In this document: one piece after another, positions 3,367 to 32,774 of the stretch
Layout: every line of letters begins with the position of its first letter
How positions within the stretch are numbered: the stretch's first letter is position 1
DNA from: a virus
DNA length: 60,033 nt
Direction: 5' to 3' (one strand)
Virus record (IMG/VR): IMGVR_UViG_3300030104_000540
Coordinates: 1 to 60,033 of that record
Notes under the pieces: model-generated
Databases searched by the model: none
Told to the model about the DNA's origin: nothing
What the model saw: only the letters and a program-made list of their open reading frames with translations
Program-made: the position numbers and the translations under genes

Positions 3367-4014
3367 TTAACCTCCTCTAAATACTTTTCTAACTTTTAAA
3401 AAGTCACTCACGCTAATGTCTACCTGAGAAAATGCTTTTCTTATTCTTTCTTTGTTCCCAGTATTAATGATAGCCATTAATTTAGTTCTTCTAGCAGGTG
3501 ATATGTCTTGATATTCTCTTTTCATTTTTAATGATAGACCATCTGCACCTTTTTTTGTTGGTAGTTTACTAGGAGCAGTCCTACTCATCTGCGTTTTTTT
3601 AGCAGCGCCCATAGATTGTCCTGTTGTTCCACCTCTTGGTGAGTCTGCACTCTTTGTTTTACCAATAGAACCCTTTGGTCTAGCTGACTGTGAGCCTGAA
3701 CCTGTAATTTTTTTGTCTGCTTTCTTTGGAGCACTTGTCTTCTTTGCTTTTTTTGCTGCAGTTCCCATTGATTTAGCTTTTGTCTTCTTACTAGGTGCTT
3801 TTTCCTGTGTAACTTTTTTACCACCAGCAATAGTTCCCTCACTCTTTGCCATCTTAGTACTTTTTCTAATACGTATAGGCAGATCATAAACCTTTTCACC
3901 TGCTTTTGCCGCAGCTTTTGATTTAGGTTTAACCTGATCGCTGTAACTTTTACCTTTTTTCTTTTTCTTTATCATACTACTGATAAGTTTTTTTACTAAC
4001 TTTGTTGCTGCCAT
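3367..4014 (-). CDS. Lys/Ala/Ser-rich basic protein with small C-terminal domain
   Basis: 215 aa. Starts MAATKLVKKLISSMIKKKKK, very like the start of the 53334 product (MVAIKLIKKLLVGTVKKTKK). About 100 residues of Lys/Ser/Gly low complexity follow. The last 50 residues are more ordered (REYQDISPARRTKLMAIIN and KAFSQVDISVSDFLKVRKVF). A GGGAG ribosome site precedes the ATG. Probably binds DNA or virion components by charge; no family is assigned. Confidence 0.6.
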   Translation of the reverse strand: MAATKLVKKLISSMIKKKKKGKSYSDQVKPKSKAAAKAGEKVYDLPIRIRKSTKMAKSEGTIAGGKKVTQEKAPSKKTKAKSMGTAAKKAKKTSAPKKADKKITGSGSQSARPKGSIGKTKSADSPRGGTTGQSMGAAKKTQMSRTAPSKLPTKKGADGLSLKMKREYQDISPARRTKLMAIINTGNKERIRKAFSQVDISVSDFLKVRKVFRGG

Positions 4015-4027
4015 TATTTTATACTCC

Positions 4028-4234
4028 CTATTCGTGCCAACCTTCGGCTTTCATGGCATTCTCTACACGAGATAGAGAATAACGCACTCCTGTATCTTTA
4101 TAAATGAGTGCTCTAATGTAATGTACAGAGGAATGAGGTACATGAACTGCACGTAAGTCTCCATATTTACGTAAAGATTTGTACGTGTCTGACAAAATGT
4201 CATCCGTATATGTTAGTTTTACTGATTTTTTCAT
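4028..4234 (-). CDS. Small conserved protein (MKKSVKL family), left copy
   Basis: 68 aa from the ATG at 4234; an in-frame TTG nine bases earlier is possible but less likely. A clear paralogue lies at 58459-58668. Both start MKKSVKL, carry a V/I-PHS motif, and end in a helix VENAMKAEGW or VEEAMRAEGW. Each is the first gene of a leftward transcript below a TTGACA/TATAAT promoter, and both share an almost identical start region (ATGAAAAAATCAG). A small DNA-binding or regulatory protein is plausible but not shown. Confidence 0.65.
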   Translation of the reverse strand: MKKSVKLTYTDDILSDTYKSLRKYGDLRAVHVPHSSVHYIRALIYKDTGVRYSLSRVENAMKAEGWHE

Positions 4235-4340
4235 AGATGTCAACTATTATTTTAGTACAGAATGTACATTATACTGTATTACCAAGATTTTTTATACTTA
4301 TAATATGCTACATTTAAGTATTTATTTATTTTTAAAGTGT

Positions 4341-4355
4341 AACAGTTTAACTGTT
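4341..4355. promoter_or_regulatory. Operator-like palindrome at the leftward start site
   Basis: AACAGTT-T-AACTGTT, two perfect 7-bp half-sites around one base. It lies 6 to 20 bases downstream of the -10 box of the leftward promoter, so it covers the expected transcription start. This is the usual place for a repressor to bind. Confidence 0.45.
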
Positions 4356-4361
4356 ATGGTA

Positions 4362-4389
4362 ATTATACTCTTTTTACGCAGCTTGTCAA
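4362..4389 (-). promoter_or_regulatory. Consensus sigma70 promoter, leftward
   Basis: On the complement TTGACA (4384-4389), 16 nt, TATAAT (4362-4367): all twelve hexamer bases match consensus. It faces the 4234-28 gene cluster. In a circular genome it would drive the entire late operon. The second hub has an equivalent at 58803-58831. Confidence 0.85.
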
Positions 4390-4817
4390 CCCCAAAACAA
4401 TTAAATAAGTATAATTTTGTAGTATTTAGTGTGGCAATGTTGCAACTGTTGCATACTTGCAACACTATTTAATGGAGTTATCTATGTGGTTACCACTTCA
4501 ATTTCCTAATCTGTGTATTTATACAAGCATACGTACCCCATAGGGTGGCATGGCTGTCGCCCTCCCCCTCAATCGTGGGCAGACGTGTGCATAATGTCCA
4601 GCCACACGCAGGAATTGAGCCGACCAAATGCTCATTCTCTCTGAGAATGAAAGTGCAATCAGACCAAAACCGACCCCTAACACTCAAACGGAGTGTTAAA
4701 GGTGGAGTTGCCGAGCCAAATGACCATCACAAAGTGATGAATTGGCAAAATTGCCGTTCAAACTACGTTTGGGAGTACAAAAAACCATACCCCCTCTTAA
4801 CAGCGAAGCTGTTACAA

Positions 4818-4831
4818 GTCCGATGTCGGAC
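4818..4831. repeat. Dispersed palindrome GTCCGA-TG-TCGGAC, copy 1
   Basis: Exact copy in the control region, preceded by AA. Two 6-bp half-sites around two bases, the form expected of a dimer-binding site. Confidence 0.85.
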
Positions 4832-4894
4832 AGTCTGCATCATCAGAAACAGATCAATCATAGATAGATTCTCTATCAAAAACTGACGGCAAAA

Positions 4895-5016
4895 TGACTC
4901 CGTTTGAACATTTTTTTATGGTTTCATTTGAAATGTTTTAAGCACCCTGTAACGAAGTGAAGGGTGTTAAAACCTTTCAATTAAATGAAACCAAAAAAAT
5001 GTAACAAACGGAGTCA
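4895..5016. promoter_or_regulatory. 122-nt long hairpin enclosing the ribosome site of the first early gene
   Basis: The outer arms are 12 bp and perfect (4895-4906 with 5005-5016). The next arm (4908-4929 with 4983-5002) pairs throughout except for a 2-nt bulge. The inner arm (about 4930-4948 with 4963-4980) pairs with one mismatch and one bulge. The loop carries AACGAAGTGA. The GGAG Shine-Dalgarno bases (5010-5013), six bases before the 5020 ATG, are paired with CTCC at 4898-4901, so in RNA this would hide the ribosome site. A role as a replication or cruciform element is also possible. Confidence 0.8.
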
Positions 5017-5019
5017 AAC

Positions 5020-5643
5020 ATGAAAAATTCAACAACAACCACTTCCAAATTAAACAACGGTTTAATTCAAAACTTAGCTAAAGCTAAGTCAAATGCTGAA
5101 AAAGGTTCAATTCTCTCTAGAGAGAATACACGTCTACTGTCTCTTGAAAAGAGACAGTTTGAAGCCCAAACTATGTTTGGAGGTTTTTGGTTTTCACTTG
5201 GAAAGCTCATCTCTGATGAGTTGAATGCAAGTGGAAAGTTGAGACTTTCCACAGCTCAGCTTAAAAAGCTGAATATCACTAAAATTGAACGTCAAAGACG
5301 TTCAGATGCTAAACTTTTCTTTGAAAATTATGATGCTTTACAATCTCTTACAAAGAGATTTAATAACGTATCAGCTTTGCTGAAAGAATTTAATAAACAG
5401 AACTCAAAGAGTTCTGAAACATCTACTAAAGTAGATGAAAAGTCATCTTCTAAAGAAGATGTTAAGTCCGATGTCGGACAAAGTGATAACAACGAAGTTG
5501 TTAAAGTAGGTACTTTTCAAGTACCTAATGTAAAGCAAATGGCTGAAGCCATTGTAATGCAAGCCATTGAAAATGGCTTAGAAGTTAAAGAGCTAAAAGC
5601 TCTTAACGCTGAAATTGCTAACCAAATCAAGGCTTTAGCTTAA
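5020..5643 (+). CDS. First early protein, 207 aa, gene composed of hairpins
   Basis: Unrecognised. The product is polar and helical: a basic N-terminal half (LSLEKRQFEAQTMFGGFWFS, then KKLNITKIERQRRSDAKLFF), a Ser/Lys/Asp-rich linker (about residues 125-155) and a C-terminal helical pair (VKQMAEAIVMQAIENG, then LKALNAEIANQIKAL). It is the first gene of the rightward transcript, where phages usually place host-takeover or anti-defence functions. The gene is most unusual at the DNA level: about twenty adjacent stem-loops fill it, nine of them back to back in 5398-5607. Some are in frame with the loop as a GAA codon (for example NNEVV and AIENG). The rightward gene at 59273 sits in the equivalent place and has a similar size and layout, but homology is uncertain. 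Confidence 0.75.
   Translation: MKNSTTTTSKLNNGLIQNLAKAKSNAEKGSILSRENTRLLSLEKRQFEAQTMFGGFWFSLGKLISDELNASGKLRLSTAQLKKLNITKIERQRRSDAKLFFENYDALQSLTKRFNNVSALLKEFNKQNSKSSETSTKVDEKSSSKEDVKSDVGQSDNNEVVKVGTFQVPNVKQMAEAIVMQAIENGLEVKELKALNAEIANQIKALA
5466..5479. repeat. Dispersed palindrome GTCCGA-TG-TCGGAC, copy 2
   Basis: Exact copy inside the 5020 gene, encoding part of the linker (KSDVGQ). It is one of nine consecutive hairpins there. Confidence 0.85.
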
Positions 5644-5648
5644 CCATT

Positions 5649-5711
5649 ACTAACATAGATGTAATACATATTGAATGTATATGAAATATGTATTACATCT
5701 TAAATGTTAGT
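5649..5711. promoter_or_regulatory. Large intergenic hairpin between the first two early genes
   Basis: An inner stem of 16 perfect base pairs (5657-5672 with 5685-5700) and an outer stem of 8 (5649-5656 with 5704-5711), separated by a 3-nt bulge, around a 12-nt loop. No U-run follows, so it is not a standard terminator. RNA processing or mRNA protection is more likely. The ribosome site of the next gene follows directly. Confidence 0.75.
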
Positions 5712-5726
5712 TAGAAAGGAAAAATT

Positions 5727-6017
5727 ATGAAAATTACATACTGTAAACCTGACCCATTACTTGATCCAAAAAATCGCTCTTACTATGTTATACCTAAGTA
5801 TAACCATAGTAAAGTCCACAAAGACTTTGCTGACTACGTCAGCCAGAAAGTAGACGTAGTCTACGTTAATGGCGAAGCCATTGAGTATGGAACAATGGAT
5901 TACTACGTAAAAGATGTAGTTAGCAATTTCCCTGCTCAGTATGAGCAGTTAGAAGTTAATCAGCAAATGAAAGAATTTGCTCAATATGACACAGGATTTA
6001 GACCTGTTATGAAATAA
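5727..6017 (+). CDS. Early protein of unknown function, 96 aa
   Basis: Good AAAGGA ribosome site. The product is acidic and aromatic-rich (MKITYCKPDPLLDPKNRSYY, then YVSQKVDVVYVNGEAIEYG). No family recognised. The gene carries several short hairpins (GCTGAC-TAC-GTCAGC, GTAGAC-GTA-GTCTAC, AATGGC-GAA-GCCATT, CTGCTCA-GTA-TGAGCAG), continuing the pattern of its upstream neighbour. It lies between a long intergenic hairpin and a terminator. Confidence 0.7.
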   Translation: MKITYCKPDPLLDPKNRSYYVIPKYNHSKVHKDFADYVSQKVDVVYVNGEAIEYGTMDYYVKDVVSNFPAQYEQLEVNQQMKEFAQYDTGFRPVMK

Positions 6018-6023
6018 CAGTAA

Positions 6024-6037
6024 GTCCGATGTCGGTC
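6024..6037. repeat. Dispersed palindrome, copy 3 (one mismatch)
   Basis: GTCCGA-TG-TCGGTC; the final arm has T for A. It lies seven bases after the stop of the 5727 gene and just before a terminator. Confidence 0.7.
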
Positions 6038-6048
6038 TTAACAGCAAG

Positions 6049-6078
6049 GCTGTAGCAGTAATGTTACAGCCTTTTTTT
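6049..6078 (+). terminator. Rho-independent terminator
   Basis: Stem GGCTGTA / TACAGCC around a 10-nt loop, followed by seven T. It ends the transcript after the 5727 gene. An alternative AACAGC-AAG-GCTGT hairpin overlaps its left arm and could compete with it. Confidence 0.75.
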
Positions 6079-6101
6079 ATGCCTAAAGAAAGGATACCAT
6101 T

Positions 6102-6305
6102 ATGAGAAATAAATATATACTATCAGTGTATGCAATGTTTGCTTATGCAATGGCTAACATTATCACAGGTTTTTATACATTATCATATGCAAATACCGTT
6201 GTATTTGCTCACATGCAACCATATGATGCGATTGTATGCACGATTAGTGCAATCTTTATTGCATGGGGTACTATGATAATAGGAGTTGTAGTGCTAAAGT
6301 ATTAG
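6102..6305 (+). CDS. Two-pass small membrane protein, 67 aa
   Basis: Ribosome site AAAGGA, then two hydrophobic helices (about residues 6-31 and 40-65) joined by a short polar turn (HMQPYDAI). It is early-expressed, directly after a terminator and before a long AT hairpin. Small early membrane proteins in phages often block superinfection or alter the envelope, but there is no family evidence here. Confidence 0.65.
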   Translation: MRNKYILSVYAMFAYAMANIITGFYTLSYANTVVFAHMQPYDAIVCTISAIFIAWGTMIIGVVVLKY

Positions 6306-6314
6306 TAATATAAC

Positions 6315-6354
6315 AATAAATAATATATATCTATTTATAGATATATTATTTATT
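6315..6354. promoter_or_regulatory. Long AT-only intergenic hairpin
   Basis: A 16-bp stem made only of A, T and one C/G pair (left arm 6315-6332 with a 2-nt bulge, right arm 6339-6354) around a 6-nt loop. It lies between the membrane-protein gene and palindrome copy 4. Confidence 0.65.
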
Positions 6355-6372
6355 TTATATATTACTTATTAA

Positions 6373-6386
6373 GTCCGATGTCGGAC
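6373..6386. repeat. Dispersed palindrome GTCCGA-TG-TCGGAC, copy 4
   Basis: Exact copy, flanked by AA and ATAA, 20 bases before the start of the 6406 gene and just before its ribosome site. Confidence 0.85.
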
Positions 6387-6405
6387 ATAAACAGAAAGGG
6401 TTATT

Positions 6406-7047
6406 ATGTTTAATACAGTTAAAGAAGCATGGGCTGAAGTGGGTGGCTTATCCAAGCCATCTAAAATGCCATCATTTGGTTATTCATTAAGTGCATTTAA
6501 ATGCAAGGTAGGTAGTAAGCTGAGGAATATTGCTAACTCTACATGTAGTGATTGCTATGCATTGAAGGGAAGGTATGTCTTCCCCAATGTACAAGAAGCA
6601 TTGGATAGGAGAATGGATAGGCTATTGAACAATCCTAATTGGATTGAAGCTATGTCATTTTTAATCAATCACTATTCCACTAAAGGTGGAGTGTTTAGGT
6701 GGCATGATAGTGGAGATTTACAATCTCTTGATCACCTACAAAAGATTGTAAAAGTTGCTGAGCTTACACCTAGTGTAAGGCATTGGCTACCAACAAGAGA
6801 GGTAGCAATGGTGCGAGATTACCAAAAGCAATACGGAGAGTTTCCTAGCAACTTAGTTGTTAGGATAAGTGCTACTATGATTAATGGTTTACCCCATAAG
6901 TTTCATAGGCATACTAGCACAGTATCAACAGCCAAAGATTTTGATTTGGGTTGGACTTGTCCTGCTAGTAAACAAGGTAACAAGTGTGACACGTGTCGTG
7001 CTTGTTGGGATAGTAATGTTGAAAATATTACTTACCCTTTACATTAA
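6406..7047 (+). CDS. Gp88-like cysteine-rich phage protein
   Basis: 213 aa. I recognise the mycobacteriophage gene-88 family layout: KMPSFGYSLSAFKCKVGSKL, then CSDCYALKGRY, then FRWHDSGDLQS and VRHWLPTRE, ending in a cysteine cluster (WTCPASKQGNKCDTCRACWD). About seven cysteines, some in C-x2-C pairs, suggest a bound metal or iron-sulphur site. The biochemical role of the family is not established as far as I know. It is widespread in phages as a lone accessory gene. Hairpins continue in the DNA (GAGATT-TAC-AATCTC, CTTACAC-CTA-GTGTAAG). Confidence 0.75.
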   Translation: MFNTVKEAWAEVGGLSKPSKMPSFGYSLSAFKCKVGSKLRNIANSTCSDCYALKGRYVFPNVQEALDRRMDRLLNNPNWIEAMSFLINHYSTKGGVFRWHDSGDLQSLDHLQKIVKVAELTPSVRHWLPTREVAMVRDYQKQYGEFPSNLVVRISATMINGLPHKFHRHTSTVSTAKDFDLGWTCPASKQGNKCDTCRACWDSNVENITYPLH

Positions 7048-7081
7048 GAGTGTTATAGTATATAACATAAACATTAACTAA

Positions 7082-7095
7082 GTCCGATGTCGGAC
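7082..7095. repeat. Dispersed palindrome GTCCGA-TG-TCGGAC, copy 5
   Basis: Exact copy with the same AA / ATAA flanks, seven bases before the AAAGGAG ribosome site of the next gene. Confidence 0.85.
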
Positions 7096-7117
7096 ATAAT
7101 TGAAAGGAGCATATATT

Positions 7118-7390
7118 ATGTTTTTCTTATATTCGTCTAAATTAACTAACGATAAGATGGGAGTAAGACGTAGTCTTATTCTTGAAATTAATGATGTCAA
7201 AGTTATCAATTTTAAAACTATGACATATTGGAGAAAGAGATTGTTCTCTTACTCTAGAACACTCAACAAGCCTGTGGGCTTTACTCAAGGTGATTGCTTT
7301 AACAGTTATCACTTCTTTAACTTCACATTACATGTGGAGAAAAGAAGAAACAGGCAATCTGTGAGAAAGCTGTGGCACTTCGCAGGTTAA
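7118..7390 (+). CDS. Early protein of unknown function, 90 aa
   Basis: The ATG at 7118 is chosen because AAAGGAG lies about eight bases upstream; an in-frame TTG at 7100 would place the ribosome site inside the gene. The product is basic and aromatic (FLYSSKLTNDKMGVRRSLIL, then YHFFNFTLHVEKRRNRQSVR). It could be a small DNA-binding or inhibitor protein; no family recognised. Short hairpins such as TAAGAC-GTA-GTCTTA persist. Confidence 0.65.
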   Translation: MFFLYSSKLTNDKMGVRRSLILEINDVKVINFKTMTYWRKRLFSYSRTLNKPVGFTQGDCFNSYHFFNFTLHVEKRRNRQSVRKLWHFAG

Positions 7391-7394
7391 TGTG

Positions 7395-7550
7395 ATGTCT
7401 AAGATGCGTAACCCTATTGCTAGAATGTTGCACATAGCGACACGCAATAGGGTTATGGGTGTAGACAAAAAGTTTAACAAGAAAAAAGAAAGGCAGAAAA
7501 ATGCAAAGTCAAAACTTAGGAAAGATGCGAGTAAACAAGAAGATGTTTAA
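7395..7550 (+). CDS. 51-aa highly basic mini-protein
   Basis: MSKMRNPIARMLHIATRNRV followed by a Lys-rich tail (KKFNKKKERQKNAKSKLRKD). It overlaps the next mini-gene by 50 bases in another frame. A 10-bp inverted repeat (AACCCTATTG with CAATAGGGTT, about 7410-7455) frames its first codons. Phages often encode such short basic proteins next to each other, and this one may be a nucleic-acid binder. The support is only the open frame and its setting. Confidence 0.5.
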   Translation: MSKMRNPIARMLHIATRNRVMGVDKKFNKKKERQKNAKSKLRKDASKQEDV

Positions 7551-7873: not shown

Positions 7874-8455
7874 ATGAAAATTAAAAAGCTAATCAAACTA
7901 TTAGAATGCATTGAGGGTGACTACAATGGCAAACTACCACAGGACATGTATCATCTAGGCACGTACACAAAAGAGGGTGGCACGTGGGAAGCTATTGCTG
8001 AGATGGATTTTGTACATGCTATGAGGGCATTTAAAAGGGTAATCAACTATGATGTAAACCTAGAGGTATCTGTATCACAGACTAATCAGATAATGAAACT
8101 AGAGCAAGAGGTGTCACACTTGAGAGAGAGAGTAAAAAACTTGAATAAACAAGCTCATGCCTTGCAAGAATCAAACATTCAGATGAAAGAACGTAACCAA
8201 GACTTACACAAAAGGCTTGAGGAGAAGTCTTACAGAGAAGTGACAGCACCACGTTATGTATTCAGCGAGATACCTAACGACTGTGATGGTCAAAGGTTTG
8301 TTGATGATGCAAAAAACTATTTCAACAGAAGCAGATACAATATGAGAGTGCGAGGTCAACACATCAAGGAAGAATACAAAGGCACAGGTGCTACGGCATA
8401 TGGGCAAAGCATAGAACAATCAACACACTTACGTGTATACATAGAGGAGAAGTAA
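7874..8455 (+). CDS. Coiled-coil protein of unknown function, 193 aa
   Basis: The ATG at 7874 follows GGAGAG by five bases; the open frame extends further upstream but without a ribosome site. The N-terminal half (residues 1-65) includes a LLECIEGDYNGKLPQDMYHL segment. Residues about 70-120 form a coiled coil (QIMKLEQEVSHLRERVKNLN and onward). A polar C-terminal domain follows. It could be a dimeric early regulator. Confidence 0.6.
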   Translation: MKIKKLIKLLECIEGDYNGKLPQDMYHLGTYTKEGGTWEAIAEMDFVHAMRAFKRVINYDVNLEVSVSQTNQIMKLEQEVSHLRERVKNLNKQAHALQESNIQMKERNQDLHKRLEEKSYREVTAPRYVFSEIPNDCDGQRFVDDAKNYFNRSRYNMRVRGQHIKEEYKGTGATAYGQSIEQSTHLRVYIEEK

Positions 8456-8457
8456 AA

Positions 8458-8661
8458 ATGAAGAATGAATATTTAAAAGAAACATTTAGTAATGATAAAG
8501 TAATCGTATCAAAAGTAGATATAGATGCAATGCATAGATACATAAGCAGTAAGGATTCAGAAACTATATCTGCTATTGTCTATGATGCTTTAACGTCTAT
8601 GGATATTAAACATGATGGTTTTGGTTGGGATATAAATGTAACTGTAGAACAGGAGAAGTAG
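8458..8661 (+). CDS. Unknown small acidic protein, 67 aa
   Basis: GGAGAAG ribosome site, 2 bases after the preceding stop, so co-translated. The product is MKNEYLKETFSNDKVIVSKV and onward, with no recognised motif. It belongs to a run of small tightly packed genes (7.6-9.4 kb) of the kind usually dedicated to host interaction in early phage transcripts. Confidence 0.55.
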   Translation: MKNEYLKETFSNDKVIVSKVDIDAMHRYISSKDSETISAIVYDALTSMDIKHDGFGWDINVTVEQEK

Positions 8662-8856
8662 ATGAATAAAATTTTCTTAACATACGAGCAATCTCAATGG
8701 CTATATGTCGTTTGGGTAGATGGTGTAGCTAATTACTACCCCACCTATGCAAAAGCAAAAGAATACTATGACGTTTGTACGGATTATGATAACGTAGTGT
8801 TGGATTGTTGGGATACATTTCATAAAAGGCTAAGAACAATAGAGGAGAAAGAATAA
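8662..8856 (+). CDS. Unknown small protein rich in Trp and Tyr, 64 aa
   Basis: Starts immediately after the previous stop (TAGATG) with GGAGAAG upstream. The product contains five tyrosines and three tryptophans within its first 35 residues (SQWLYVVWVDGVANYYPTYA), suggesting a small beta-rich fold. The stop overlaps the next start (TAATG). Confidence 0.55.
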   Translation: MNKIFLTYEQSQWLYVVWVDGVANYYPTYAKAKEYYDVCTDYDNVVLDCWDTFHKRLRTIEEKE

Positions 8857-9077
8857 TGGAAGAAGAAATTATTGACATGCTAAACATACAGCATAGAATA
8901 GAAGAGTTAATGCAAGAGGGCAAGGCATCAAAACTCAGAGGGTGGTCAGCGAGAGACATTTCAGATCGCATCACCTCTGAGTGGCGAGACGAGAAAGCAG
9001 GAGAGTATGCTTTCAAGTACATAGCCTACAATTATTCAACAGCTAAGTCCGACATCGGACATAAGAAAGGAGACTAA
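8856..9077 (+). CDS. Unknown small helical protein, 73 aa
   Basis: MEEEIIDMLNIQHRIEELMQ, then a basic segment (KASKLRGWSARDISDRI). The helix-rich charged sequence could fold as a small DNA-mimic or DNA-binding protein. The last codons (KSDIGHKKGD) are encoded by palindrome copy 6 and by the ribosome site of the next gene. Confidence 0.55.
   Translation: MEEEIIDMLNIQHRIEELMQEGKASKLRGWSARDISDRITSEWRDEKAGEYAFKYIAYNYSTAKSDIGHKKGD
9047..9060. repeat. Dispersed palindrome GTCCGA-CA-TCGGAC, copy 6 (opposite orientation)
   Basis: The two central bases are the complement of those in copies 1-5; the half-sites are identical. The same AA / ATAA flanks and a following AAAGGAG are kept, as in copies 4 and 5. 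Confidence 0.85.
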
Positions 9078-9078
9078 C

Positions 9079-9444
9079 ATGAAAGCATATTACATAGACC
9101 CAATACTACAGTTTGTAGCAGAGGTAGACTTTATACCTGAATCAAACCTGCACGGATTTAGAAAGATATATGAGTGGATTGATGCAGGAACATTTGATGT
9201 AGTCAATCTCAATAGTTACGGAGATGGTATGTACGTTGATGATGAGGGATTACTCAAGAGCAGTAACCATTTCTTTAAAGTTCCTGTGTGGAATGGCGAA
9301 GAGTATGTCCAGCAGATGTATGCAGGTAAGGCACTCATACTAGGTGTAGATAGTGATGGAGACAGCGATGATGTAAAAGGTTTATCTTTTAAATTGTTGC
9401 AAGATAGAATAGAATTTTTAGGAGAGAAGGAGATACGACAATGA
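9079..9444 (+). CDS. DUF3846-like protein, 121 aa
   Basis: Contains DVVNLNSYGDGMYVDDEGLL, a Phe/Asn turn and AGKALILGVDSDGD, which fits the DUF3846 plan (a short beta domain with a conserved Asp-Glu-Gly and an AG-x-A-x-x-x-G strand). DUF3846 occurs in phages and plasmids beside DNA-modification genes. Here it directly precedes the cytosine methyltransferase and overlaps it by 4 bases (ATGA). Biochemical role unknown. Confidence 0.55.
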   Translation: MKAYYIDPILQFVAEVDFIPESNLHGFRKIYEWIDAGTFDVVNLNSYGDGMYVDDEGLLKSSNHFFKVPVWNGEEYVQQMYAGKALILGVDSDGDSDDVKGLSFKLLQDRIEFLGEKEIRQ

Positions 9445-10679
9445 ATGTATTAAGTTTATTTGATGGTATGTCTTGTGGACAGATAGCACTTAACAGAGCA
9501 GGTGTGAAGTATGACAAGTATTATGCATCTGAAGTTGACAAGTATGCTATTAAAGTTGCTAATGTTAATTTTCCAAACACGATACAGTTAGGAGATGTAT
9601 CTTATATTAACTCTCATGGTTCAGATGAACTACATGAAGATGAGATAGACCTACTTATGGGTGGTTCACCTTGTCAGGGATTTAGTGTAGCAGGTAAACA
9701 ACTAAACTTTGATGACCCACGTAGCAAACTATTCTTTGAGTTTGTCAGACTAAGAGATAAGCTAAAGCCTAAGTACTTTCTTATGGAGAATGTACCTATG
9801 AAACAAGATTCGCAGGACATTATTACAAAGTATTTAGGTGTTGAGCCTATCACTATAAACTCTAGTTTATTCTCTGCACAGAATAGAAAGAGATTGTATT
9901 GGACTAACATTCCCTTTGATATACCTACAGAAGACAAAGGTATAGTGTTGCAGGATATACTAGAAGATGGTATTGCTAATGATGCTATGACTAACAAAGA
10001 TAGCAAGTCACATTGCATTACTGCACGATACAATGGTGCAGTATGGTGGAACAGTATCCAACGTAAGCAACGTACTATGGTACAAGTGGGCGAAGCTGAT
10101 AACATCAAAGGCTTTGATAGTATCAAACGTATCTACTCACCCAATGGGAAAGCTCCCACACTTACCACTATGCAGGGTGGGCATAGAGAACCAAAGGTAG
10201 CTACAGATATTGTAACATTTAATCCTAACCAAGAAGCTAAGATACAGAAGATGAATGTTACAACGGACAAAGCCAACTGTCTTACAGAAGCCATAGGCAG
10301 AGGTGGTAGTAGCTCTGAGTATCTGACTAGTGTTAAGAAGAAAACACTAGCACTTAAATCCATAGGTAGAATTGTTAATCGTAGGCTAGATGAGGATGGT
10401 GTCCGTAAAGACAACCAACTTGAGCTACCTCTATCCAAACAGTTAGAGATAAGTGATAGTGATAAGTCCAACTGTCTCACAACTGTAAGCAAAGACAATG
10501 TAGTAGTAGAGGGTATGCAATGGAGAAAGCTAACACCAATAGAGTGTGAGCGATTGCAAACTGTACCTGACAACTACACCAATCACGTGTCCAATAGCCA
10601 ACGATACAAGATGTTAGGTAATGGTTGGACAGTTGATGTGATTGCACACATAATGAAAGGAATAAAGAATGTGGACTAA
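9441..10679 (+). CDS. dcm: DNA (cytosine-5) methyltransferase
   Basis: 412 aa, all main C5-methylase motifs in order. Motif I is SLFDGMSCGQ (SAM site), motif IV GGSPCQGFSVAG with the catalytic Cys, motif VI MENVP, motif VIII SAQNRKRLYW, and motif X MLGNGWTVDVIAHIM. A long variable region (about residues 190-350) is the target-recognition domain. No restriction endonuclease partner is seen, so it is an orphan enzyme, most likely protecting phage DNA from host nucleases or changing its regulation. It is translationally coupled to the DUF3846-like gene. Confidence 0.92.
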   Translation: MNVLSLFDGMSCGQIALNRAGVKYDKYYASEVDKYAIKVANVNFPNTIQLGDVSYINSHGSDELHEDEIDLLMGGSPCQGFSVAGKQLNFDDPRSKLFFEFVRLRDKLKPKYFLMENVPMKQDSQDIITKYLGVEPITINSSLFSAQNRKRLYWTNIPFDIPTEDKGIVLQDILEDGIANDAMTNKDSKSHCITARYNGAVWWNSIQRKQRTMVQVGEADNIKGFDSIKRIYSPNGKAPTLTTMQGGHREPKVATDIVTFNPNQEAKIQKMNVTTDKANCLTEAIGRGGSSSEYLTSVKKKTLALKSIGRIVNRRLDEDGVRKDNQLELPLSKQLEISDSDKSNCLTTVSKDNVVVEGMQWRKLTPIECERLQTVPDNYTNHVSNSQRYKMLGNGWTVDVIAHIMKGIKNVD

Positions 10680-10947
10680 ACCAAAAGCAAAGCGATGGCA
10701 GGATGCTGAACTATACGAAGTGTATTGGCAAGGCAAACTGCCACGCAGTGGATTCAGAAAGACTTGGGTTCTAACCAAACGTAAATGGGTTTGGATACGT
10801 GAAGCAGGTAATGTATACAAAGACATACACAAAATGTCTGTTGCCAATTTTAATCTGTTACCTCATTGGACTGATGAGAAGTGGCAGAGTATGAGAAAGG
10901 ATTGGCAAGAGGGTAACTTTAAACCAATGAAAAGGAGGAGAAGATGA
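10669..10947 (+). CDS. Unknown Trp-rich basic protein, 92 aa
   Basis: Nine or so tryptophans in 92 residues (KPKAKRWQDAELYEVYWQGK, then TWVLTKRKWVWIREAG) and a basic tail KPMKRRRR. It overlaps the methyltransferase by 11 bases and the next gene by 4. The dense Trp/Lys pattern is unusual and could form a nucleic-acid-binding surface, but no family is recognised. Confidence 0.6.
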   Translation: MWTKPKAKRWQDAELYEVYWQGKLPRSGFRKTWVLTKRKWVWIREAGNVYKDIHKMSVANFNLLPHWTDEKWQSMRKDWQEGNFKPMKRRRR

Positions 10948-11378
10948 TGATAGCTGAAGCATTATTTTGTTTAGCACTCAACGTGTATCACGAAGCTAAG
11001 AACCAATCTTTAATTGGACAGATAGCAGTGGCACAAGTTGTTATTAACAGAGTACACGATGAACGATACCCTGACACAATATGTGAAGTGGTGGAGCAAG
11101 GACCAACTTACAGTTGGAAGCCTGACTTTCCAATTCGTAACAGATGTCAGTTCAGTTGGTACTGTGATGGTAAAAGTGACACACCTAGAGACCCAGATGC
11201 ATGGGAAGAAGCTATGCTAGTAGCTAGTGGTGTATATCATGGTCAAGTGTATGATCTAGTAGAGGGTGCAACACACTACCACGCATACTATGTAACACCA
11301 TCTTGGGCGAGTAGTAAGACATACATTACACGAATAGATGACCACATATTTTACAGATGGGATATTAATTATGATTGA
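10944..11378 (+). CDS. SleB-type cell-wall hydrolase
   Basis: 144 aa matching the SleB/CwlJ hydrolase domain: ALNVYHEAKNQ with the conserved Glu17, AQVVINRV, CEVVEQGP, CQFSWYCDG, a central helix AMLVASGVYHG, GATHYHAYYV and W. These enzymes cut peptidoglycan. No signal peptide is present. Its place in the early block, beside DNA-modification genes and far from lysozyme and holin, is odd; it may need a holin or act in another step. The start ATGATG offers two possible first codons. Confidence 0.85.
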   Translation: MMIAEALFCLALNVYHEAKNQSLIGQIAVAQVVINRVHDERYPDTICEVVEQGPTYSWKPDFPIRNRCQFSWYCDGKSDTPRDPDAWEEAMLVASGVYHGQVYDLVEGATHYHAYYVTPSWASSKTYITRIDDHIFYRWDINYD

Positions 11379-23519: not shown

Positions 23520-26500
23520 TTATAATTGTCTTGCTAATAATCTTCCTATCATAGCACCTCTTCTATAATCGCCGGATTGTTCTACAGTTGTTTTAAAATA
23601 CTTTTTATAGTAGTCATTGGCTAACTTACGTGCATTACGTGGTGTTTTTTGCCATTGACTTCTATCAAAAGGTGTGAAAGAAACGATTGTACCTTTCTTA
23701 GAAAGTTTCTGTGCTTCAACTTCCCCTATCATCTTAGCTATTTTTCTTAAATCTCTTAAATATATTTTTACAGCAGCTAGTTTTTCAGGTTCTGTTTTCT
23801 TTTTATATGCATCTGAATCTACTAATGAACCAATATGTTCTTCAATTAAAGGACCTAGTTGTTCCTTTGTTAATCTATCAGCTATTTTATCTCCTGTTGT
23901 AGGTAAAAGTTCAAAACTTTTATATCCTAATCTAGTTAGCTCTGACTCAGCAGAGTTTGCTCTCTCCCTAAATCTTAAACCTAAAAACTGTCCTAGTATA
24001 GGAGACTGTGTACGCACTGTAGCTTCTCTTGATGGCGATTCAAACTCAGGTAATGTCTGTGATGCATAAGGAATACCTTTGTATAGTTTATTTATAAACG
24101 CATGTACTGCTCTGTCTTTAGCTCCAATACCATCAACTGAATTAGAGTCTCTTACTATTGCTTCTTCCTCGTCAAAAGCCGCAACAACATCTTTAACCAC
24201 ACGAGCAGGTGTAACAAATCCTGCTGTTACCTCTCCTACATATCCACCTAATATCTCTCCAAGTTTCTCTGTTCCAATAGATTCTAATCCACCTTCTGCA
24301 CCAATTACTTCATATAATTTATCAACTGTGTAGGAAGCTGCTCCTGCTCTAAACTGAGCACCTGTAAATCCATCTATAAAATCTTTACCTTTTAATTTAT
24401 CTAACTCTCCATTAGTGTACTTAATTATCATGTCAGCTACAATCATATAAGGTGCTGCAGGGAAGAAAGGTCTCATATCAATTGTTCTTCCATCAGGTGT
24501 CTTAACATTATACCATTCTGTATCTTGATTTTTAGAGCGAAAATATATGGCTGTTCCTAATGCAGCTGAACCCACCATACCTTGTGACATTCTTTGTCTT
24601 GATGCTCTTAATGCACCCTCACTTACTTCTTTACCTGCACCTATCATTCCTGTTTGAATTGCACCTTGAAATAAACCATAAGCTCCATTAAGAGGATTGT
24701 ATTTTAATTGAAATGCCATAGCGTTTGCCATAAATCTTGCAAACGGAAATTCACCTGTACCAATAACTGGAACCATAGGAAATGATTCAACAAATCTAAC
24801 AAAGTGATGTGCTGGACCTTGCTTTGGCATAAAAGCAAATGTATTTCTTAGAGCATATTCCATTCCACCTTGTAGTAAATCAACATCTATTCTTTTTCCA
24901 AACTCTCTTTCATCTAAAGGTATATCTGCTCTACGCATATTACGCAATACATAATCAGAAAAGAAAGCTCTTCTAAACATAACATCTTGTGTTAGGTTTA
25001 AATAGTTTGCATACCTAGAAAATGCAGTCAATGTTTCTGTTTCATCTGGACCTACATCACCAAGAGTACGAAAAATAATTTTAGCTATCTTTGGGTTATG
25101 TCTTAATAGCAGATCAGACATCTCTTTACTTTTACCTTGTTGTGCAAAAGCTACAGCTAAACCAAAACTATCTTTTGTCCAATCTCTTAATCCTTGAGCA
25201 AATGCTTCACCTGAAGCATTACCTTTAAAAGCACCTCTCAATGCTCTACCACCATGATATAAACTAGCTTCCATAGTATTTGCTAATGTCTCAAAAGAGA
25301 TAACAGTTAGACCTGTCGCCACGTTTCTTGCTGTTGTTGCAATCTGTGTAACCATTAAAGCTCTACGTTCTCTATCTAATCTTTTCATAAAACCATAGAA
25401 AGAACCTAATGCACTTCCTACCTCTTCACTTGCTCCGTATGAGTCATCTAGTCTTTGTTTTAAATCAGGACTAAGATTAGTTAGTGTCTTTCTTAACTTT
25501 CCTAGTTGCCCTCTAGCTCCTAGCATTTGTGCAGCTTCTCTGATGGACATTCTTTCCATCACAGCAAATTCATCTGTCGTCTGTAAAAAATCTAATAGGT
25601 CTTTTGTTGTTAAACCCTGCCTACTCAACGCACTTTCTAAAACATCTTCATCAATCTTATCAATGTTTCTCACAACATTCATTACAGTATCACTAACTCT
25701 TTTATCTTTTTTAGCTCTCTGTTTTAATATGATTGGAACACCTTTATCCCTTTGTGTTTTTGCTATATCAAGAACTATCTTACCCATTTTTACAGATAGA
25801 TCAACCAATACTTTTGCATCTACAATAGGTGGCTGTCTAAGTATTTCTTGTTTTGTTAATATGTTTTGATCTAGCTTTTCTTTTGCACTAGTAGGGTCTA
25901 GTTTTTTTGTGTTTGGTGGTTCTGTAAATCCTTGTTTCTCTGCCTGTTGTTGTCTTTTAATATCTCTTTGTCTTCTTTTCATTTGCCCTTCTGTTAGAGG
26001 ACCAATAAAATCATCTTCAACCTTTTGTTTTTTCTGCAATCTTTCTTGTTGTTTTTTAATTAATCTTTCTGCTTCATCTAATCTATCTTGCCTAATAACT
26101 CTACCCTCTATCGGATCAATCGTTTCTAAATCTTCTTTCTCTAATATCTTTTTTGCTTCTTCTGCTTGTTTCTTTTGAGTTTTACTTTTACCTAACAATT
26201 TAGCTGTGCCTACTAATGTTCCACCAAGAGCACCACCAATACCTGCAAACATTATAGATTCAAAAGCAGTTGACATTAAATCTATCTCAGCATCAGGTGT
26301 TAAAGGATTACCTTCAGCATCTGTCATATAACTTTTTCTTTTTATGTCTTGATCAGCTAAGTTATACATAGCACCATATCCTGCACCTGATATAGAACCA
26401 CCTATTATAGCTTGAGTAACATTATTTTTTGGCACAAACCTTTTGAGTCCTTCTTTGATAGCCATCTTTCCAACAACTGCTGTTCCAATTTTTGCCGCTC

Positions 26501-26984
26501 CAAATCCTAATATATTTATTGGATCAAGTATAGCCGCACCTAAATAATCTTTAATGGTTCTAGCTGTGCTATCTCCACCTGTCTCGCCCATTCCGGGCAA
26601 TCTATTATATGAATTATATAAGTAGCCAAATTGTTTTCTATCTTCTTCGTTAGCACCTCTAAGATAATCAATCTGACCCATTATTCCTATACTATTAGTT
26701 TCAAATCTACGAGCATGGGTCATAAATCTTTTTACATAATCTTCATCAGTCTCATCTGTTTCTTGCTGTCCATTTTCTCCATGTCTTTTAAACATGTAGT
26801 CACGGAGATTGTCCATTCTATTTTTATCTTTAGACCATTGTTGTATTGTAAGAGGATCGTCTTCATCCTCTTCTCTAAACATAGAGGGTTTAGGCTTGTA
26901 TTTATCTAGTTTATTAGAGCTTCTTCCTAAAGAACTACTCCAATTATTTGTTACAGGTTTAAATTGATCTAAGCTATTTACCAT
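23520..26984 (-). CDS. Large internal virion (DNA-ejection) protein, 1154 aa
   Basis: The last gene of the late operon and the largest protein. No known domain is recognised. The N-terminal third has Gly/Ala-rich hydrophobic stretches (LGAAILDPINILGFGAAKIG, then GGSISGAGYGAMY and AGIGGALGGTLVG) that could insert in membranes. A charged coiled-coil region follows (about residues 270-380), then a long helical body. Position after two other large proteins and this composition match the ejection proteins of T7-like podoviruses (gp14-16 roles): they leave the capsid to form a conduit through the host envelope. Confidence 0.65.
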   Translation of the reverse strand: MVNSLDQFKPVTNNWSSSLGRSSNKLDKYKPKPSMFREEDEDDPLTIQQWSKDKNRMDNLRDYMFKRHGENGQQETDETDEDYVKRFMTHARRFETNSIGIMGQIDYLRGANEEDRKQFGYLYNSYNRLPGMGETGGDSTARTIKDYLGAAILDPINILGFGAAKIGTAVVGKMAIKEGLKRFVPKNNVTQAIIGGSISGAGYGAMYNLADQDIKRKSYMTDAEGNPLTPDAEIDLMSTAFESIMFAGIGGALGGTLVGTAKLLGKSKTQKKQAEEAKKILEKEDLETIDPIEGRVIRQDRLDEAERLIKKQQERLQKKQKVEDDFIGPLTEGQMKRRQRDIKRQQQAEKQGFTEPPNTKKLDPTSAKEKLDQNILTKQEILRQPPIVDAKVLVDLSVKMGKIVLDIAKTQRDKGVPIILKQRAKKDKRVSDTVMNVVRNIDKIDEDVLESALSRQGLTTKDLLDFLQTTDEFAVMERMSIREAAQMLGARGQLGKLRKTLTNLSPDLKQRLDDSYGASEEVGSALGSFYGFMKRLDRERRALMVTQIATTARNVATGLTVISFETLANTMEASLYHGGRALRGAFKGNASGEAFAQGLRDWTKDSFGLAVAFAQQGKSKEMSDLLLRHNPKIAKIIFRTLGDVGPDETETLTAFSRYANYLNLTQDVMFRRAFFSDYVLRNMRRADIPLDEREFGKRIDVDLLQGGMEYALRNTFAFMPKQGPAHHFVRFVESFPMVPVIGTGEFPFARFMANAMAFQLKYNPLNGAYGLFQGAIQTGMIGAGKEVSEGALRASRQRMSQGMVGSAALGTAIYFRSKNQDTEWYNVKTPDGRTIDMRPFFPAAPYMIVADMIIKYTNGELDKLKGKDFIDGFTGAQFRAGAASYTVDKLYEVIGAEGGLESIGTEKLGEILGGYVGEVTAGFVTPARVVKDVVAAFDEEEAIVRDSNSVDGIGAKDRAVHAFINKLYKGIPYASQTLPEFESPSREATVRTQSPILGQFLGLRFRERANSAESELTRLGYKSFELLPTTGDKIADRLTKEQLGPLIEEHIGSLVDSDAYKKKTEPEKLAAVKIYLRDLRKIAKMIGEVEAQKLSKKGTIVSFTPFDRSQWQKTPRNARKLANDYYKKYFKTTVEQSGDYRRGAMIGRLLARQL

Positions 26985-29854: not shown

Positions 29855-30096
29855 TAATTTTTTCCTTTAAATCCTTGTTCTATTCTACTTGCAAGTCTTG
29901 CTATCTTCATCAGATCATCTTGTTCTTTTTCTGATTTTAAATTCTGCATATTTTTTTGTATACGTTCAGTTCCTCTTTTCATCAAGCCTGTTTTATAATC
30001 ATCAGCAGGTTGTAAATCTTTTCTGTAAAACTGAGATTTTAATAACATAATTTTTTTATAAGCCATTTCAGCTGCTTTTGTTTTTGCTATTGTCAT
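29854..30096 (-). CDS. Small basic helical protein, 80 aa
   Basis: MTIAKTKAAEMAYKKIMLLK, then a basic helical tail (GTERIQKNMQNLKSEKEQDD). It is one base from its upstream neighbour's end and overlaps the downstream start. Unknown; part of the internal-protein cluster. Confidence 0.55.
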   Translation of the reverse strand: MTIAKTKAAEMAYKKIMLLKSQFYRKDLQPADDYKTGLMKRGTERIQKNMQNLKSEKEQDDLMKIARLASRIEQGFKGKN

Positions 30097-30097
30097 A

Positions 30098-31783
30098 TTA
30101 ATTTCCTCTAGGTATTGGTGCTATATTTAAATAATCACCTACAATTGAACCACCTATTGGGCTAGTAAATAAGTCTACTATGAAACCACCAATAGATGCA
30201 CTAGCTTCTGCATCTAAATCTAAGTGAGCTAACTCTGTTTGTAACTTTGCATCTATCTCAGCTAATGAAAGTTCATGCAATCTATCTTTACCACTTTCCC
30301 CAGTAGTCCATGCCCATTCCATAAGATCACCCATATGTTGCCACATGTTTGCATATGCTGTATTAGAAATATCTAATAATGCTTTTGCATTAAATTCATT
30401 TGAATAGTTTTGTGCTGCAGTATCTGTTGTAGCTATTTGCTGTTTCCATTTAGCATTAAATTGTTCTATAACTAATTTATTTGAAGCATTAAATTGTTCT
30501 CTTGCATCCTCTAATTGTTGATTAAATTTAGCCATAGCATTTGCTTCACCTGAATTAAACTGTTCCATAGCATTTACTTGAGAAGCATTAAACTGCGATA
30601 TATTACTTGCAAGACTAGCCATAAATTGATCTGCCTGTTGTTTTGACTGAGCATTAAATTGTTTAGCTGCGTTGTCGGCAGCCTGATCTGACAACATAAA
30701 ATTTTGTTGTGCTTGAGTATTAAATATCTCTGTCTGCTGTCTGTTGTTCATGTTTGCTAAGCCTACTTGCAAAAATGTCTTAGCATTTTCAACTACAGCC
30801 TGTTGTCTATTACTTAAATTAGCCATGTTAAGTGATGACAGAGCTGCGGCTTTTGCAAGTGTAGCTTGTTGTGCGTTTGTTGCATTAGCTAAACCATACT
30901 GTGCAAATGTATTTGCATCTTGTTTTGCTATAGGTAATTGTGACTCTAGTATTGCATTAAATACTGCACCACTAGCCATACTACTAGCACCTAATCCACG
31001 AGCTGCCATAGCTGACATTGCTGATCTTACTGCCGCTGTAGCGTAGGATGGTATCTGTCCATCTTCAGCTTGAGCACTTAACTTTTCTAACTGACCCATA
31101 ACAGTTGCTTCTTTAGCTACTTGTGCCTGTCCTGCTATAAGTGCATCAGCATATGCTTTCTTTTCTTCATCAGACATCGTGCCTTGAGCAGCTTTAATTT
31201 TCATTTCTTCAGTCACAGTCATTTGTTCTGCTTCTGCTTTAGGTGCGTCACCTACTTTTGTTGGATCATAAGTTTCTGGCTCTACTTCTCTTGGATCGTC
31301 TGCTGTTTTAGCTTTACCTTCTTTAGTGTCTACAGGTGGTTTATCTTCATCTACTTGACCTTTAGTTGGATCAACTATTTGGTCATCTTTTTCCTCTATC
31401 TTTTTAGGTTGTAATGTAGTACCTTCAGGTGCATCAGGTGTTTTAATGTTTCCTATTGTGTCATCAAAAATATTACCTTGTGTTTGTGGTTGAGAAGGTG
31501 TTGTTCCATCCCCAATAGTTCCACCTTCAATGCCACCTTCTTCTAAATCTTTTTTTAATTGTTCAGGGGTTTTATCTCCTACTAAAGCACCACCCTCTTG
31601 CATCTTTTTAACTACACCACCTTCAGCCATTTGCATAGCCTTTGCATTATAGTTTCGCATCATATTACTCTTCTCAGGGTTAGCCATTAAGAAGTTTTCA
31701 AACTGATTCATGTCACCCATATGACCCATTGAACGTGCAATACGTTGCATCGCTTCGGGTTTAAATGCTTTAAAAGTTGCCAT
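30098..31783 (-). CDS. Internal virion protein with an 11-residue (hendecad) repeat array, 561 aa
   Basis: A Gly/Lys/Pro/Thr-rich disordered half (residues about 50-190, with MAEGGVVKKMQEGG near the start) is followed by an Ala/Gln/Asn-rich helical half. In the latter, units beginning QFN or KFN recur at exactly 11-residue spacing seven times (QFNAQSKQQAD, QFMASLASNIS, QFNASQVNAME, QFNSGEANAMA, KFNQQLEDARE, QFNASNKLVIE, QFNAKWKQQIA), with fainter units before. Hendecads form right-handed coiled coils. Together with its place, this suggests an ejection-conduit protein. Confidence 0.7.
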   Translation of the reverse strand: MATFKAFKPEAMQRIARSMGHMGDMNQFENFLMANPEKSNMMRNYNAKAMQMAEGGVVKKMQEGGALVGDKTPEQLKKDLEEGGIEGGTIGDGTTPSQPQTQGNIFDDTIGNIKTPDAPEGTTLQPKKIEEKDDQIVDPTKGQVDEDKPPVDTKEGKAKTADDPREVEPETYDPTKVGDAPKAEAEQMTVTEEMKIKAAQGTMSDEEKKAYADALIAGQAQVAKEATVMGQLEKLSAQAEDGQIPSYATAAVRSAMSAMAARGLGASSMASGAVFNAILESQLPIAKQDANTFAQYGLANATNAQQATLAKAAALSSLNMANLSNRQQAVVENAKTFLQVGLANMNNRQQTEIFNTQAQQNFMLSDQAADNAAKQFNAQSKQQADQFMASLASNISQFNASQVNAMEQFNSGEANAMAKFNQQLEDAREQFNASNKLVIEQFNAKWKQQIATTDTAAQNYSNEFNAKALLDISNTAYANMWQHMGDLMEWAWTTGESGKDRLHELSLAEIDAKLQTELAHLDLDAEASASIGGFIVDLFTSPIGGSIVGDYLNIAPIPRGN

Positions 31784-31785
31784 AA

Positions 31786-32016
31786 TTATTTACCTATTAA
31801 TATCTTATCTAATTTATCTTCTAATCTTTGAAGTGCATCCATTACTACATGCATATCTTCCTTAACGTCATCACGCTTTGCGTATTCTTCTCTTGTTTTA
31901 TTTAACAGTATGTCAAGTCTTTTTATCTCCATAAACATACCACGAAAGACCCATATAGCAGGAGCTATTACTACTGTAAGTATTCCATTCCAAAATAGTA
32001 TAGGGTTTATTTCCAT
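31786..32016 (-). CDS. Membrane-anchored coiled-coil protein, 76 aa
   Basis: One N-terminal membrane span (ILFWNGILTVVIAPAIWVF) followed by a coiled coil (IKRLDILLNKTREEYAKRDD, then MDALQRLEDKLDKILIG). The N-in, periplasmic-coil plan fits an i-spanin or a phage hemolysin-like (XhlA-type) protein. It is close to tail genes rather than to lysozyme. A similar layout is found at 54835-55083. Confidence 0.55.
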   Translation of the reverse strand: MEINPILFWNGILTVVIAPAIWVFRGMFMEIKRLDILLNKTREEYAKRDDVKEDMHVVMDALQRLEDKLDKILIGK

Positions 32017-32024
32017 AGTTTATC

Positions 32025-32774
32025 CTACATTAAAGAATAATTGTTTCCTGCATTACCACCAATATTGCTTGCATCAGCGTTACAGTTTGTTCTAAAATAA
32101 ATAGATATATTATCACCAGCACCACCAGAAGTGCCTGAAGTCATAGATACAGTAACAGTTGTACTTGCTGTTAATACTGGAGTCAACACCTGAGTTGTTC
32201 CACTTCCCATAGATTGATTTGTTACTCCACCAGAAGAAACACCACTTCCAGTAAAATTTAAAGTAGCACCTGCTCCACCCGGACCACTAACTACTGCATG
32301 TAAATAATATTCACCTGCTACATTAACAGTAAAAGGAATTGAAAAAGAACAAGTCTGTCCTGCAAGACTCCATCTGTTAACAAAAAGTAACTGAGCTTGA
32401 TTAGCTACCCCTGCAATACCGGCATAGTTAACATTATATCCAGACCTATACCAATAGTCGCTATTCGTTTTTACACCTACCCACTGTCTATCACCGGTGT
32501 CTCCACTTTCAGTAATACCACTAGCATCTACGGTTACTGCCGCATTTGTCACTAATTTTCTACCACCACGAAAATCTGTTAAACTAATTGATCCACTTGT
32601 GGGAACATTAGAGTTTGCATTAGCGGCATTAGTCGTTTGTGTTCCACTATTGTATGACGTAGGATTTGGAACAAAAGAACCACCCTTATATAACGCTGTC
32701 AAATTATTACTGCTTGATCCGTAATAATCTCTTACAGTAGTTAAATTTACAGAACCACTACTTGCTAGGGGCAT
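32025..32774 (-). CDS. Tail tip or fibre-associated beta protein, 249 aa
   Basis: Starts MPLASSGSVNLTTVRDYYG and includes SGSISLTDFRGGRKL, both commonly seen in phage tail-tip proteins. The rest is Gly/Ser/Thr/Asn-rich with predicted beta strands (CSFSIPFTVNVAGEYYLHAV, then TLNFTGSGVSSGG). It probably decorates the tail fibre and touches the receptor. It overlaps the S74 fibre gene by 17 bases. Confidence 0.6.
   Translation of the reverse strand: MPLASSGSVNLTTVRDYYGSSSNNLTALYKGGSFVPNPTSYNSGTQTTNAANANSNVPTSGSISLTDFRGGRKLVTNAAVTVDASGITESGDTGDRQWVGVKTNSDYWYRSGYNVNYAGIAGVANQAQLLFVNRWSLAGQTCSFSIPFTVNVAGEYYLHAVVSGPGGAGATLNFTGSGVSSGGVTNQSMGSGTTQVLTPVLTASTTVTVSMTSGTSGGAGDNISIYFRTNCNADASNIGGNAGNNYSLM

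Follow-up and report, generated by a model that had tools for sequence, protein, structure and literature searches.

Single-stranded RNA (ssRNA) phages and some RNA viruses have an ordered genome structure, in which many local hairpins lie in coding sequence and undergo compensatory changes. Temperate phages can have scattered operators, such as the stoperators of mycobacteriophage L5, where the short target of a phage protein recurs several times along an early operon. The early promoters of phage N4 are hairpins with 5–7 bp stems and 3-nt loops (PMC4496689). Here we describe a field of short hairpins in the early region of a phage of HMO-2011 type, which is one of the dominant and widespread types in the sea (PMC9038755), together with the gp74-family protein and the palindrome that accompany it. 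The DNA analysed, referred to as the window, is the whole virus record IMGVR_UViG_3300030104_000540 (60,033 bases), which was assigned to this group by its gene order and proteins, with rightward early and replication genes and leftward structural genes.

The field resembles the N4 promoters in its 5–7 bp stems, 3-nt loops and location close to where the early genes begin. However, N4 has three promoters, which carry conserved loop and stem bases, lie on the template strand and are used by a giant virion polymerase, whereas the field contains dozens of hairpins with no conserved bases, and no such polymerase was found. As in the ssRNA phages, coding sequence carries many local hairpins that are maintained through compensatory changes, but these are confined to approximately 3 kb in a phage with double-stranded DNA, are short and seemingly even in spacing, contain very little G·U and have stems not enriched in G+C. 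Repetitive extragenic palindromic and bacterial interspersed mosaic elements (REP/BIME) and other palindromic repeats are likewise short inverted repeats; the hairpins of the field differ from these in not being copies of one sequence and in lying within coding sequence. It is the palindrome, not the hairpin field, that recalls the L5 stoperators, as several short sites are distributed across the early operon, but this site is palindromic and tied to the unrelated gp74 family. No report of such hairpin fields was found in the open-licence literature searched.

A dense hairpin field in the early region

Non-overlapping hairpins with a stem of at least 6 bp and a loop of 2–6 nt were chosen greedily along the sequence, and their number was compared with that in 50 dinucleotide shuffles and, for open reading frames (ORFs), in codon-preserving shuffles. 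The initial annotation had proposed a dense field at 4633–7460, and 48 hairpins were indeed found there, in comparison with 4.3 ± 2.3 (maximum 10) in the dinucleotide shuffles. The field (4632–7250, + strand) comprises about 48 hairpins with 6–10 bp stems and loops mostly of 2–4 nt, is densest at 5020–5640 and is conserved in the close relative L005. The 4500–6070 segment contains 34 hairpins (2.3 expected), while 19 are located in the ORF at 5020–5643, for which 1.3 ± 1.0 and 2.1–2.4 were obtained with the dinucleotide and codon-preserving shuffles, respectively. Control stretches at 8000–11000 (4 vs. 4.1) and 30000–33000 (7 vs. 4.2) were at background level. The nine back-to-back hairpins noticed earlier at 5398–5607 (+ strand) are present, separated by 3–10 nt, and one of them is the palindrome copy at 5466–5479; the RNA fold of 5390–5610 has −76 kcal/mol (z −9.1). 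Hairpins containing GCGAAGC do occur at 4798–4814 and 5868–5882 as had been pointed out, but in the family as a whole such loops make up the smaller part. The frequent GAA and AAA loops were borne out on the + strand.

A CRISPR (clustered regularly interspaced short palindromic repeats) array or another copied palindromic repeat was rejected, as the units share no sequence and only the GTCC..GGAC palindrome is repeated. An Rfam 15 scan for known RNA families gave no match at gathering score. Thus, the initial view that the hairpins share a shape and are not a copied repeat holds, but the claim that every stem is different does not, since four stems (at 4818, 5466, 6373, and 7082) are copies of GTCCGATGTCGGAC. 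On the whole the initial reading was partly supported; among the roles that it offered, RNA armour and hairpins read by a protein may still apply. It did not include the palindrome, the gp74-family protein, the long leader hairpin and the conservation in the phage group.

Loop length in the family showed a sharp peak at 3 nt (449 vs. 18 expected), followed by 2-nt loops (192, the palindrome excluded), then by those of 4 and 5 nt, with a weak excess at 0–1 nt. The enrichment climbed with stem length up to 6 bp and was roughly flat between 6 and 9 bp. Among unique loops, T(GAA)A (35) and C(AAA)G (28) were more common than C(GAA)G (17). The closing pair is generally formed by a 5′-C or T and a 3′-G or A (the 5′ base of the pair closing 3-nt loops in ORFs was C in 83, T in 60, G in 11, and A in 12 cases), and this pyrimidine/purine preference indicates that the hairpins really fold. 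Their spacing was apparently more even than random (coefficient of variation 0.66 vs. 0.93), a value to which greedy picking may contribute in part. No helical phasing of the hairpin centres was detected, apart from an even/odd rounding artefact. The density was at background level upstream of −1250, approximately 11/kb at −500 and 13–16/kb in the ORF, then 8–9/kb directly after it, decreasing to 2–3/kb by 4–7 kb. The field sets in close to the beginning of the early operon, and there is none on the divergent side. The shape is conserved while the sequence is largely free: 6–8 bp stems and 3–4 nt loops, one per 20–40 nt. Two long A+T-rich inverted repeats (5654–5703 and 6302–6368) were also observed between early genes, of which that at 5654–5703 is not preserved as such in L005.

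The hairpins are conserved and maintained by selection

Homologues were gathered from IMG/VR by a palindrome scan and then by a protein scan, giving 113 distinct members in total. Their ORFs contain 971 hairpins against 139 expected, at the same location but with different stem sequences, and the excess over codon-preserving shuffles was large in nearly every homologue. In 77 homologues 661 ORF hairpins were counted (95 expected), and in the 36 further ones obtained by the protein-only scan 310 (43 expected), all 36 exceeding expectation. HMO-2011 itself has its own field at the matching place with stems of other sequence, while L005 retains nearly every hairpin, with 8 of 290 bases changed in stems and 31 of 272 in spacers.

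The stems are kept by compensatory substitutions. Codon alignments revealed paired substitutions within one stem (e.g., TTGTCCC/GGGACAA vs. TTATCCC/GGGATAA), and, when all pairs were considered, 247 of 1,090 hairpins were fully Watson–Crick in the aligned partner, in comparison with 0–3 when the partners were slid. Watson–Crick pairing had been kept through a double change in 62 hairpins (0–2 with slid partners), and an independent count gave 36 double-change cells, a number reached by none of 500 shuffles, in which 14.8 were expected. The field thus displays the compensatory changes characteristic of selected RNA secondary structure. In the untranslated leader, the divergence of stems (0.106) was lower than that of spacers (0.167), and the loops evolved fastest (0.216). 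These results show that the hairpin field is real, conserved, and selected. Neither refuting condition of the initial annotation held, since the density was not down at the level of codon-preserving shuffles and paired changes did preserve the stems. In about 100 distinct phages, both the codons and the amino acids of an early gene are bent to keep dozens of unrelated hairpins, which implies that the early mRNA or DNA of these phages is subject to a requirement not recognised so far.

The gp74-family protein, the accompanying palindrome and the inheritance of the module

The ORF at 5020–5643 (+ strand), in which 19 of the hairpins lie, is homologous to the gene for HMO-2011 gp74, though divergent from it, and encodes 207 aa with a predicted all-helical N domain, a disordered linker (135–166) and a helical tail. 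The AlphaFold model of gp74 (predicted local distance difference test score 80.5) is likewise all-helical with a disordered linker. The fold search with this model gave no PDB match and none to known hairpin binders, and the sole significant viral match was S4S2E1, which is 205 aa long, as is HMO-2011 gp74. The ORF 5020 product matched nothing in Pfam and PHROGs, and no gp74 relatives were found when bacterial genomes were searched.

The palindrome GTCCR-N4-YGGAC is present in several copies in the early region of members. In the window, GTCCGATGTCGGAC occurs in the leader (4818–4831), within the ORF (5466–5479, encoding KSDVGQ, a position shared by most homologues), ahead of the gene at 6406 (6373–6386) and ahead of the gene at 7100/7118 (7082–7095), while the variant GTCCGATGTCGGTC (6024–6037) precedes the gene at 6102. 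Across the members the in-ORF copy encodes S-D/N-V-G. The GTCCGATGTCGGAC palindrome is an element separate from the hairpin field.

The predicted recognition helix of the protein spans codons 117–133 (5368–5418, + strand), and its codon 118, Ser in the window, varies across the family in step with palindrome base 5. Residue 118 was Thr in 62 of 65 members with GTCCA sites, and Ser or Lys in 33 of 34 with GTCCG sites. For these contrasts, the palindromes were typed from sites outside the ORF only and the columns concerned were omitted from the tree. Of 13 independent pairs, 11.1 had residue 118 switching along with the type of palindrome and, on average, none had it switching the opposite way (median p 0.001). 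Among the further columns shown, those outside the helix switched in 0–2 independent pairs, and helix positions 122 and 125 partly tracked the type. For the palindromes, site and protein covary in the way expected of an operator array. Owing to the covariation of residue 118 with the palindrome base, gp74 very probably binds the GTCCR-N4-YGGAC palindrome, and the two are likely to represent a new operator–protein pair with an unmatched fold. A predicted DNA-binding family is thereby delivered together with its putative site and specificity residue. In two genomes (L031 and L247), the G and A types of palindrome are equally frequent or half-and-half sites occur, and these genomes may be in the middle of a specificity switch.

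Since the first homologue set had been fetched by the palindrome, its link to the field was re-tested by the protein-only scan and with cultured phages. The gp74 gene, the palindromes and the field are all present in CRP-1, CRP-345, HMO-2011, and the window, and all three are lacking from the cultured phages CRP-2, CRP-603, CRP-207, CRP-3, and HTVC033P, from which two conserved leader motifs are also missing. Thus, the field, the gp74-family protein and the palindromes are inherited as one package. CRP-1, which has the field, and CRP-2, which does not, form a cultured pair on one host, strain FZCC0023, making direct testing possible.

Leader elements

The leader of ORF 5020 contains a long hairpin (4895–5016, + strand; −56 kcal/mol, z −9.9), whose basal stem includes GGAG, the ribosome site of the ORF, and a comparable long hairpin precedes the start codon in many relatives. 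A copy of a leader motif, ACTGTTATGGTA, is located at 4350–4369 (+ strand), most members having ACTGTTAT..ATCAGTTGC. The motif ACTGTTATGGNATCAGTTGCC, to which this copy is related, lies near the field start at about −380 in 68 of 100 homologue leaders and is possibly a promoter or operator. In 59 of 100 leaders, a conserved stretch GAGTTTAGCGCAC ... variable hairpin ... CTGCANTCAC ... GAAACGGCA.GCGCAGAGGATCAC was found at about −240 to −130; it resembles a structured RNA or a DNA site and was not seen in the window. A perfect sigma-70 promoter (TTGACA-16-TATAAT, 12/12, spacer 16) at 4362–4389 on the − strand faces the leftward genes on the hairpin-free side.

Possible function of the hairpin field

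We tentatively favour the explanation that a selected hairpin array over the rightward early operon acts mainly in the early transcript, while gp74 controls the operon at DNA sites. The array would span the first ~3 kb of the rightward early operon in gp74-type HMO-2011 phages and, together with the gp74-family protein and the GTCCR-N4-YGGAC sites, would form one early-control module. With the leader, first gene and gaps tiled, no long single-stranded stretch would be exposed to ribonucleases or Rho, each stem would stay below RNase III length, and the ribosome sites would remain usable by lying in loops. The ribosome site of gp74 may be buried and switched by the long leader hairpin, and gp74 may then regulate the same operon through its DNA sites. 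This shielding role is suggested by the shape, place and evenness of the hairpins together with the general properties of ribonucleases, Rho, and RNase III. The least certain steps are the choice of RNA over DNA and that of shielding over another use.

Action in the transcript is supported by the untranslated leader, where 41 unique loops were all-purine and 14 all-pyrimidine on the sense strand, while a 1.1:1 ratio is predicted from composition. Downstream, 43 C(GGA)G loops but no TCC loops were found, suggesting that ribosome sites sit in loops, and single internal defects were G·T in 52 and A·C in 17 cases. Several observations weigh against it. G·T and A·C defects were nearly balanced in the leader (6 vs. 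5, among 412 intact hairpins) and differed little in the ORFs in the stricter pairwise count (18 vs. 11, among 765); ORF stems showed no G·T excess over codon shuffles, and a sense-strand G·T bias of similar size exists elsewhere in the genomes. In 68 ORFs the antisense strand folds as well as the sense strand (z −4.71 for both), and the G+C content of stems (0.415) does not exceed that of spacers (0.433), which indicates that stability is not being maximised. Translating ribosomes would unfold hairpins within an ORF. No rightward promoter comparable to the sigma-70 consensus was found at 4000–5000. Furthermore, CRP-1 and CRP-2 share a host strain, thus the field is not required for growth there. 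The idea that G·U is wholly excluded from stems was overturned by the larger aligned ORF set, in which internal defects were G·T in 35 and A·C in 10 cases, and the rRNA G·U control gave the expected result, though on few hairpins.

Several of these points would suit hairpins acting as DNA, either in a single-stranded + strand (the displaced strand of an R-loop, or the template of the lagging strand close to where replication starts) or as small cruciforms where strong transcription of the operon causes negative supercoiling, and serving perhaps to hold the region open or to keep single-strand binding protein off it. The near-strict Watson–Crick pairing, for which G·T in leader and ORF is hardly more acceptable than A·C, if at all, the equal folding of both strands, the stems not rich in G+C, the hairpins in gene and gap alike and the decay from one start point are all consistent with this. 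However, the loops do not follow the stability order of DNA hairpins, C(GAA)G and C(TTT)G being less common than T(GAA)A and C(AAA)G, cruciforms would not produce the sense-strand purine bias of loops, and the downstream defects favour G·T 3:1. We regard action as DNA as possible but doubtful in itself; RNA is placed slightly ahead, without conviction, as the DNA reading is nearly as good. If the latter is true, a multi-kilobase hairpin field lies inside protein-coding genes. There is perhaps a modest chance that the tiling represents a new nucleic-acid feature, free of sequence, in which near-perfect two-strand Watson–Crick complementarity is selected and which has a dedicated DNA-binding protein.

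The remaining explanations seem unlikely. That gp74 coats the hairpins by shape besides binding the palindromes would agree with the strict co-inheritance of field and gp74, with the field being densest in gp74's own gene and with the palindrome itself being a 6-bp hairpin, but the lack of a fold match to known hairpin binders and the residue-118/palindrome link, which indicates sequence-specific binding, make it improbable. Still less probable is camouflage from guide-based defence (CRISPR or prokaryotic Argonaute), by which any 20–35 nt guide taken from one or the other strand of the early region would fold on itself and work poorly. It would need both strands to pair and so allow little G·U, fits the apparently even tiling with sequences that all differ, and the early region is a favoured defence target; nevertheless, CRP-2 infects the host of CRP-1 without a field and the co-inheritance with gp74 is left unexplained. 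The initial annotation had also listed a mutational template-switch process that perfects palindromes; it would correct quasi-palindromes, perhaps at R-loops, and bring no benefit. Complementarity and not stability is retained, and quasi-palindrome mutations have been described where DNA is highly transcribed (PMC3820800), but multi-base one-arm births were seen for 1.8% of the hairpins as against 11% of the control windows, untranslated stems change more slowly than spacers and the enrichment stops rising with stem length, so this origin is disfavoured and very unlikely. Finally, promoters for an N4-like virion RNA polymerase, suggested by the similar stem and 3-nt loop size (PMC4496689), are largely refuted: as stated in the initial annotation, no N4-like polymerase was found, the polymerase motif search yielding the DNA polymerase only; C(GNA)G loops are a minority and the dozens of hairpins have no conserved bases.

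Other genes of the window

The 1154-aa protein encoded at 23520–26984 (− strand) in the structural operon had no Pfam or PHROG match. The gene at 6406–7047 encodes a protein bearing the GP88 domain (PF17338, 2e-30).

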